Part shown: positions 38,954-41,333 of the stretch, one piece after another
Position numbering within the stretch: position 1 is the first letter of the stretch
Layout: each line of letters opens with the position of its first letter
Assembly: GCA_020725555.1 (NCBI GenBank)
Contig: DYEU01000001.1
Location: forward strand, 1-64,000
Source: Desulfatibacillum sp.
GTDB taxonomy: Bacteria; Desulfobacterota; Desulfobacteria; Desulfobacterales; SpSt-501
Direction: 5' to 3'
DNA: 64,000 nucleotides
Program-made: the position numbers and the translations under genes
Notes under the pieces: generated by a model
Seen by the model: the letters and a program-made list of their open reading frames with translations, nothing else
What the model was told of the DNA's origin: nothing
The model's database searches: none

Positions 38954-39041
38954 CCCGCCTCCCGCCCGATGCCGGACGGCGAAAAGACGCCTTTTTCCAC
39001 AACCACCTGGAATTCCTACACATCTTTTTTTTCTTCAATTC

Positions 39042-39057
39042 TGGCACGCGGATTGCT
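39042..39057 (+). promoter_or_regulatory. Sigma-54 (-24/-12) promoter
   Basis: TGGCACG (39042-39048), four bases and TTGCT (39053-39057) match the RpoN consensus, with GG and GC 10 bases apart. Transcription should begin near 39068 and needs an enhancer-binding activator, none of which is in the window. It lies after mltG and reads toward the structured RNA and the GGDEF/EAL gene. Confidence 0.78.
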
Positions 39058-39067
39058 TTCTCTCCAG

Positions 39068-39208
39068 GACAAATGGCTTCTCGGGTGTGCGTGCATCTTT
39101 TCTGGAGGGCTTCCACCCACAGGGTACGCGAAGACACCCCACGAGAATAACGGCATCCGGGGAAGCCGGGAGAAAAAGACAGGGCATTGCGGCTCTGTCT
39201 TTTTTTTT
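39068..39208 (+). ncRNA. Candidate sigma-54-dependent structured RNA (about 140 nt)
   Basis: A sigma-54 promoter at one end and an intrinsic terminator at the other define the unit. Inside, TTCTCGGGTGTGCGT (39078-39092) can pair with ACGC (39126-39129) and ACACC...CGAGAA (39134-39147) to close a long bulged stem over an apical region, and the terminator stem follows. Several GGA triplets lie outside or in loops (around 39066, 39103, 39161). It could be a trans-acting small RNA, or a leader that terminates early before the GGDEF/EAL gene. A 25-codon frame from ATG 39073 is a weaker alternative. No known family was recognised. Confidence 0.5.
39173..39208 (+). terminator. Intrinsic terminator between mltG and the GGDEF/EAL gene
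   Basis: A perfect 10-bp stem (39173-39182 with 39195-39204) and 12-base loop run into a T tract (to 39208). The A run on the 5' side also makes it a possible terminator in the other direction. Confidence 0.82.
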
Positions 39209-39334
39209 GGCGAAACGGCCATGCCGGGGGGATCCGGTTTCCGGAAACACCTTGAAAAAACGGCTCAAGCCGCACCCCGCGGCGGCCGATATCCGAAAAA
39301 CAGAAAGCACTTGTCCCCGGATTCTCGGAGGTCC

Positions 39335-41333
39335 ATGGAATCGGACGCTCCCAAACCCTTGCGCCTGCTCGATCGCATCGGGCTGTTGATCATCGGCTCG
39401 GGAGCGGCGCTTTTTTATTTTTACGTCGACTATTCGCTGCGGGGGGCCCAACCCTCCTCGCTTCTCACCGTGGCCGTGATCCTCTTCATCAGCGGCTGCA
39501 CGCAGATCCTCGTTCACAGCGTCAACACCTCCAACCGCAAGCTCCAAGAGGCGAACCAGACGCTCGAGCAGAAGGTCCGCGAGCGCACCGCGGAACTGCG
39601 CAGCTCCGAGATGAAGTACCGCACGATCTTCGAGAACACGGGCGCGGCGACGATCATCGTCGAGGAGGATCACCGCATCTCGCTTGCCAACTCGCGATTC
39701 CTCGCCATGTCGGGCTGCCGGCCGCGCGAAATTCTGGAGCGGAAAACCTGGCTCGATTTCATCGACGAGGCCAGCCGCCGCCGAATCGAGGAATCCGGCC
39801 TGGAGGGCAAGGCGACGCCGGATGAGCTCTTCGGCCGGCAGTTCGGCTGCCAGTTCCTGGGACGGGACCGCAGCGCGCGACGTGCTCGTGACGCTCGCCC
39901 CGATCCCCGAAAGCCGCGCCAGCGTCGCCACCTTCGCCGACGTGACCGAGCTCAAGGAGGCCGAGCGCCGTATCCGGTTCCATGCGTTCCACGACAGCCT
40001 GACCCGCCTGCCGAACCGCGCCCTCTTCCTCGAGCATCTCGCGATGGCGATCAAGCGCGCCAAGCGCAAGCCCGGCTGCCGTTTCGCCGTGCTCTACCTC
40101 GACATCGACCGCTTCAAGCTGATCAACGACAGCCTGGGTCACAGCGCGGGCGACGAGCTCCTCGTCGCCTTCGCCGAACGGATCCGCGGCGGCCTGCGGG
40201 AAACCGACGTGCTGGCCCGCCTGGGCGGGGACGAGTTCGTGGTGCTGCTCGACGACCTCGACCGGCCCGAGGTCGCCGTGGAGATCGCCGAACGGCTGCA
40301 GGCGCTCCTGCGCGAGCCCTTCCCGCTGCGCGGCCGCGAGGTCTTCGCCCCGGCGAGCTTCGGCATGCTCCTGGATACGGCTTCTTATGAGCAGCCCGAC
40401 GCCGTCATCCGCGACGCCGACGCCGCCATGTACCACGCCAAGGAACGGGGCCGCGGCCGCATCCAGCTCTTCGACCGTAGCATCCACGAGAAGGCGCGGC
40501 GCCAGCTCCAGCAGGAGACCGACCTGCGCAAGGCGATCGACCGCAGCCAGTTCTGCAACCACTACCAGCCGATCGTCCGCCTGCAGACGGGTGCCATCGG
40601 CGGCTTCGAGGCCCTCGTGCGCTGGTCCCACCCGGAGCGGGGGCTCATCCCCCCCGGCCAGTTCATCGCCGTCGCCGAGGAGACCGGCCTGATCCTCCCG
40701 CTCACGAAGCAGATCGTGGAGGAGGCCTGCCGCGACGCCTGCGCGTGGCGCAGCCTGTTGGAGGCCGGGGGGCTTAGCGTGAGCGTCAACATCTCGAGTC
40801 GCCACTTCCTGCAGCCCGGCCTGCTCGACGAGCTCGAGGAGACGCTCGCCGCCACGGGGCTTCCCGCACGGCTGTTGCGCCTGGAGATCACCGAGTCGGC
40901 CCTCATGGAGGACTCCGAGGAGGCCGTGCGCCTCGCCCAGCGCCTGCGGGATCACGGCATCCGGCTGGCGATCGACGATTTCGGGACCGGCTATTCGTCG
41001 CTCAGCTACCTGCAGCGCCTGCCGCTCGACATCCTCAAGATCGACCGGAGCTTCATTGCGCGCATCCATCTCGAGCCGGCCGACAACCGCAACATCGTGG
41101 AGGCGATCGTCTCGCTCGCCCACAAGCTCAACCTCACGGTGGTCGCCGAGGGGATCGAAACCCCCGAGCAGCACCGCATCCTGCAGGAAATCGGCTGCGA
41201 CTTCGGCCAGGGCTACTACTACTCCCCGCCGGTCCCGGCCCGGGAGGCCCTCACGCTCCTTCGCGCGGGGCGCTTCCCCGAGGAGCCCCGCTTCCGGTCG
41301 CTCCTCCCCGCTGCGGCCGAGGCCGTCGCCTGA
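39335..41333 (+). pseudogene. Frameshifted PAS-GGDEF-EAL cyclic-di-GMP protein
   Basis: The 5' frame (ATG 39335, GGAGG upstream) encodes two transmembrane helices, a coiled coil and the first half of a PAS domain, to about 39868. The rest of the PAS domain (DVLVTLAPIP), a GGDEF domain with intact ARLGGDEF and inhibitory RETD, and an EAL domain with FEALVRW and DDFGTGYSS continue one frame over, to 41333. Both active sites look intact, so the joined protein would make and break cyclic-di-GMP and be about 665 residues. The break lies where GGGAC may once have been repeated: loss of one 5-base copy restores the usual RDG motif. It may be a real mutation or an assembly error. Confidence 0.85.

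Follow-up and report, generated by a model that had tools for sequence, protein, structure and literature searches.

Bacterial small RNAs acting via proteins include GlmY/GlmZ, CrcZ and RsmY-type RNAs, some of which are sigma-54-dependent. The Qrr1–5 RNAs of Vibrio, which are under the control of sigma-54 and LuxO, are encoded by multi-copy, stand-alone intergenic genes with a sigma-54 promoter, a strong terminator and a near-invariant core, and they use Hfq and base pairing. In sulfate reducers, a precedent is provided by four sigma-54-dependent ncRNAs of Desulfovibrio vulgaris (PMC4641369), located downstream of DVU0653 and DVU0679 and upstream of DVU2357 and DVU3282 and controlled by sigma-54 and enhancer-binding proteins (EBPs; PMC4641369, PMC3333781). 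Pxr of Myxococcus, a stem-loop sRNA with paralogues that controls fruiting-body development, is discussed alongside sigma-54 in PMC5568312. Desulfobacterales are important sediment sulfate reducers in which post-transcriptional regulation is largely unknown. Here we describe an RNA locus in a 64,000-nucleotide stretch of Desulfatibacillum sp. DNA (the window; contig DYEU01000001.1, positions 1 to 64,000) that resembles the Qrr genes in its sigma-54 promoter, intergenic stand-alone position, strong terminator, multiple copies and near-invariant core, shares the promoter consensus and sulfate-reducer background of the D. vulgaris ncRNAs, and is likened to Pxr as a stem-loop RNA with paralogues.

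Promoter, terminator and gene boundaries

The sequence TGGCACGCGGATTGCT forms a perfect -24/-12 element, identical to the sulfate-reducer (Desulfovibrio) sigma-54 consensus tGGcacg / tTGCt (PMC4641369). This element, already noted in the preliminary description, is the sole perfect match to TGGCAYRN4TTGCW on either strand of the 64 kb, and 100 dinucleotide shuffles yielded a mean of 0. Its TGGCA and ATTG portions show no variation in an alignment of seven congeneric genomes, and no activator site upstream of the promoter was conserved in the same alignment. The genome itself encodes one RpoN, and the sigma-54 activator domain is matched 39 times in it.

The terminator (AAAAAGACAG..CTGTCTTTTT and a T-run) starts 116 bases past the -12 element. 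A generic terminator scan made no forward-strand call at this site; the 10-bp stem with its T run, as originally described, is nevertheless obvious from both sequence and fold, and all seven congeneric species have it, with compensating changes in the stem among them. In the genus alignment only promoter, RNA and terminator are conserved, while the flanks are not. The window RNA presents the arrangement of the sigma-54-dependent sRNA class, i.e. a -24/-12 element 5' of a terminator-bounded non-coding gene. A small protein starting at ATG 39073 was considered and rejected, as the frame meets a stop after 18 codons in one relative (L002) and lacks the ATG in five others (L003–L007); hence the 25-codon open reading frame is not conserved, in line with the earlier statement that no convincing gene lies inside.

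Table 1. Features of the window RNA locus (positions in the window)
Feature	Positions	Strand	Evidence or remark
Sigma-54 promoter	39042..39057	+	-24/-12 element TGGCACG-N4-TTGCT; +1 predicted at 39068
Predicted primary transcript, ~140 nt	39068..39208	+	Deduced from promoter geometry and terminator position; conservation among congeners confined to this stretch
Conserved family core	39075..39167	+	Covariance-model match 39073-39168, 92.8 bits (window sequence among those used to build the model)
Helix P1, 5' arm GGCUUCUC	39075..39082	+	Pairs with 39160-39167; probability 0.64-1.0; pair type changes with pairing kept across loci
Helix P2, 5' arm GGUGU-(bulged G)-CGU	39084..39092	+	Pairs with 39150-39157; 97.7% of cells paired; RRUGY/GCAYN two-sided changes
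Internal-loop GCAUC, unpaired, invariant	39093..39097	+	Opposite UA 39148-39149; invariance refers to the first, 19-sequence alignment (later DNA-pattern matches demanded GCAUC by design)
Distal hairpin P3, UUUUC/GAGAA base with variable stem and loop	39098..39147	+	Partner-swap energies
Helix P2, 3' arm ACG-GCAUC	39150..39157	+	Alignment fold and covariation
Helix P1, 3' arm GGGAAGCC	39160..39167	+	Partner of 39075-39082
Intrinsic terminator, 10-bp stem with further pairs, T-run	39173..39208	+	Sequence; compensating changes within genus

A conserved fold under selection

Residues 39066-39210 (145 nt) fold with a minimum free energy of -62.4 kcal/mol, compared to -44.5 (sd 4.1) for shuffled sequences (z = -4.4); with the terminator removed, the z-score is -2.5. 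In addition to the two outer helices (Table 1), the fold pairs 39098-39102 with 39143-39147 and contains an inner hairpin. RNAalifold, applied to a 19-member alignment, returned P1 (GGCUUCUC/GGGAAGCC), P2 (GGUGU-bulge-CGU/ACG-GCAUC) and P3a (UUUUC/GAGAA); the invariant core of that alignment is made up of a 5' part, CGUGCAUCUU, and a 3' part, A-AACG-C. A different bulged stem, between 39078-39092 and 39126-39147, had been suggested before. Such a stem is possible on paper, yet enforcing it costs 6.4 kcal/mol, its pair probability is about 0.001 and it is not kept in relatives. The window RNA has the P1-P2-P3 fold and invariant core of the family and matches its covariance model (R1) with 92.8 bits (E 8e-25), the window sequence being among those from which R1 was built.

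In an alignment of 103 members, 94.0% of the cells are paired and 56 cells are changed on both sides, as opposed to 14.2 in shuffles. The covariation score is 0.205 compared to 0.148 in shuffles and exceeds all 500 of them, with slid controls all far lower. As this alignment was fitted to the model, an independent test was run on P3, whose variable stem is outside the model: its mean folding energy is -10.31 kcal/mol, and exchanging the 3' halves among loci raises this to -7.81 kcal/mol (sd 0.22, best -8.37). P1 likewise scored better than all 200 partner shuffles. Because the loci are related, none of these figures can be read as a strict probability. A crude longest-helix test on P3 gave no clear signal, whereas the energy swap test was clear.

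Distribution and recurrent promoters

BLASTN with 39030-39215 found a homologue in all six congeneric genomes (80-87% identity) and matches in many further families of the same order, often with more than one copy per genome. With R1, at least one copy was detected in 100 of the 291 sampled genomes of the order Desulfobacterales, with a maximum of 13 copies per genome. A phylum sample yielded matches in 12 of 345 genomes in all, including three families outside the order (f78, f106, f121). When 84,980 species genomes were searched with an exact DNA pattern, 98 stretches matched; among the matches listed, all titles were of Desulfobacterales/Deltaproteobacteria type, and nearly all were metagenome-assembled genomes (MAGs). 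In these genome sequences the family was found only in Desulfobacterota, for the most part in Desulfobacterales, a distribution that would place the window's own organism in Desulfobacterales as well. Since the RNA is missing from two thirds of the sampled genomes of the order, many of which are incomplete MAGs, it is a common feature of the order rather than an essential one. A second copy in the window's own genome (G000:C12:174277-174376(-)) carries a 10/12 sigma-54 site, CGGCATCTCTTTTGCT, immediately upstream. Elsewhere, two copies lie 190 bp apart in L054:1504-1800, and L075 holds two copies ~3.1 kb apart with near-identical flanks.

Upstream regions of 330 nt were scanned in the 96 non-identical members whose flanks were long enough: 44 contain a sigma-54 site scoring 11/12 or better, as opposed to 0/96 in both the downstream and the reverse-strand control. 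About half of the members show no clear site in this range, indicating that sigma-54 control is common, not universal. A terminator follows within 260 nt downstream in 39 of 99 members, compared to 0 and 6 in controls. Four paralogues on one 7-Mb chromosome (L063, L114, L115 and L127; CP070746) share ~40-60 bp upstream (TTGAACTCCA..ATAAGGTTATA) that contain no sigma-54 site, which suggests a subfamily under other control.

The family is absent from Rfam 15, and no sequence relationship to any named family was found. None of its 4227 families matched the window RNA at the gathering threshold, and relaxed E-values were tried too; the best sub-threshold score at the window region, 21.6 for Xoo2 with 45 needed, is at chance level, and no Qrr-type match was obtained there. 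The preliminary description, which had recognized no known family, agrees with this outcome. In the literature we found no description of the family, the 50-genome ncRNA survey that includes Desulfobacteraceae and reports the gcsH motif there being covered without its supplement, which may hold an unnamed equivalent (PMC11109978).

An additional 5' domain in some members

In ~30 loci, including the window-genus paralogues L190, L192 and L201 as well as L110:1919-2012, L125:3349-3443(-) and L117:2294-2387(-), the core is immediately preceded on its 5' side by a second conserved domain. It reads GCCACCC-CUUCAACAC-AAACC-GGC/GCC-CUCC-GGUU-GGGAG-GGUGGC, and had no credible match in Rfam. Both sides of its outer helix vary and covary; the structure is based on 14 sequences, in which the two inner helices consist mostly of invariant pairs. 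AACC/GGUU crossing CUCC/GGAG may possibly form a pseudoknot. In loci with this domain, the sigma-54 -12 element is located beyond it, 115 nt or more upstream of P1. A possible third domain is a 3' segment resembling TTGAACTGTTAACTATCAGCCTAACCTT, which is common to members of several families and follows many of the cores (L066, L135 and L121, for instance) ahead of the terminator.

Gene context and alternative readings

In the window's genus, the gene order is mltG - RNA - PAS-GGDEF-EAL - nagZ. The PAS-GGDEF-EAL gene (39335-41333) is frameshifted near 39860-39880, with PAS read from ATG 39335 and GGDEF-EAL in another frame, reflecting either an assembly error or a broken gene. Across the family, 54 of 94 upstream and 53 of 90 downstream neighbours are on the same strand, and the most frequent Pfam family accounts for at most 4 of 72 downstream and 3 of 69 upstream neighbours, with neighbours called by a simple longest-ORF rule, which in GC-rich loci also let in a few antisense ORFs that are spurious. 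This variation in identity and strand argues for a free-standing gene rather than a leader. A flagellar/FliW link, prompted by FliW, rod-protein and PilZ neighbours, was dismissed, as the window's genus has the RNA but no FliW.

An attenuating leader had been put forward as an alternative; acting in cis, such an RNA would sense a signal and thereby allow terminator read-through into the PAS-GGDEF-EAL gene. Indeed, the RNA lies on the same strand ~125 nt upstream of the start codon, and several congeneric genomes retain the arrangement. However, the RNA ends in its own terminator, the putative target is frame-disrupted in this assembly, and in most relatives the neighbours differ or face the opposite way; in the family f8 loci L069, L092 and L137, the RNA is kept between mltG and nagZ, and nagZ, not a GGDEF/EAL gene, is the next gene picked up. 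We therefore consider a leader function very unlikely. Neither GEMM nor any other c-di-GMP riboswitch gave a covariance-model match, in keeping with the earlier remark that no GEMM core was seen, and the gene context is not leader-like. That the locus is no RNA gene but a REP-like or mobile repeat is more improbable still: multiple copies, near-identical and neighbouring in L075 and close together in L054, speak for it, but sigma-54 sites and terminators are strand-specific, base pairs covary, the position is conserved within the genus and f8, and no plasmid copies or family members in viral contigs were found. A phage or plasmid origin was likewise rejected, as there were no plasmid matches, two phage matches covered the terminator only and 19 viral pattern matches were not family members.

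Discussion

Sequence comparison shows that the RNA is conserved and structured and stands alone, and that putative sigma-54 promoters recur in its family. We regard it as probable that the locus is a free-standing, sigma-54/EBP-controlled small RNA gene of a lineage-restricted family, most likely acting in trans. Conservation, covariation, the recurrence of sigma-54 sites and the lack of an Rfam match lend good support to the main proposal of the preliminary description, namely a new structured RNA with a regulatory role and sigma-54 dependence. Transcription would depend on an EBP that activates sigma-54 RNA polymerase, giving an RNA of ~140 nt that extends from about 39068 to the terminator near 39208. 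The RNA folds into a single long hairpin with interruptions. Its core, in which GUGYNCGUGCAUCUUUU faces AANAACGGCA, is nearly fixed across a bacterial order. This core may bind a protein and/or target mRNAs in trans, the gene context alone pointing to trans action, and a sigma-54 signal could thereby be converted into post-transcriptional control in bacteria lacking a recognizable Hfq. Hfq was not recognized in the window's own genome, and nothing in the 291 genomes sampled from the order scored above the Pfam cut-off, a notable absence given the multi-copy sRNA family.

How the core might act can be divided into two sub-mechanisms, which are subdivisions of the small RNA gene reading, not competitors of it. 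A protein-bound or protein-sequestering RNA, in which the core is a protein site and the copies titrate a regulator as in CsrB/RsmZ or CrcZ, is a tentative option. CGU/ACG and UU/AA are fixed even though paired, beyond what pairing needs, which speaks for a core that is tightly folded or bound by protein rather than for a plain seed; the multiple copies, the lack of Hfq in the order and the non-conserved apical loop are also compatible with this option, whereas repeated GGA or A-rich motifs were not seen, no candidate protein is at hand and neighbours are not consistent. A seed-type antisense RNA, in which the unpaired GUGCAUC(UUUU) pairs with mRNAs, is a tentative option as well, slightly less likely than the first. 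Its GCAUC does not vary and is left unpaired by the fold, but no Hfq was recognized, and an 11-mer complementary to the core was not clearly enriched in congeneric genomes compared to a reversed control, with RNA genes set aside.

It is conceivable, albeit unlikely, that these RNAs represent a new class, sigma-54-switched, multi-copy and trans-acting in Hfq-lacking bacteria, with a subclass bearing an extra 5' pseudoknotted, riboswitch-like domain. RNAs of this subclass would then integrate an EBP signal with direct ligand or protein sensing. With one consensus core, several copies and a defined promoter class, the recurrent family offers a concrete entry point into post-transcriptional regulation in Desulfobacterales.

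Compared to known systems, the window RNA differs from Qrr1–5 in its fold, in the lack of sequence or Rfam matches and of a quorum context, and in belonging to an order without recognizable Hfq, which makes a Qrr-like, Hfq-type mechanism unlikely. GlmY/GlmZ, CrcZ and RsmY-type RNAs differ in sequence, motifs and hosts and gave no Rfam match. Pxr serves a different process and was compared in sequence through Rfam only. The D. vulgaris ncRNAs, two of which adjoin the gene of their regulator, are apparently of another class. In its logic, the RNA seems to most resemble the multi-copy, sigma-54-controlled Qrr RNAs and the sigma-54-dependent ncRNAs of D. vulgaris.
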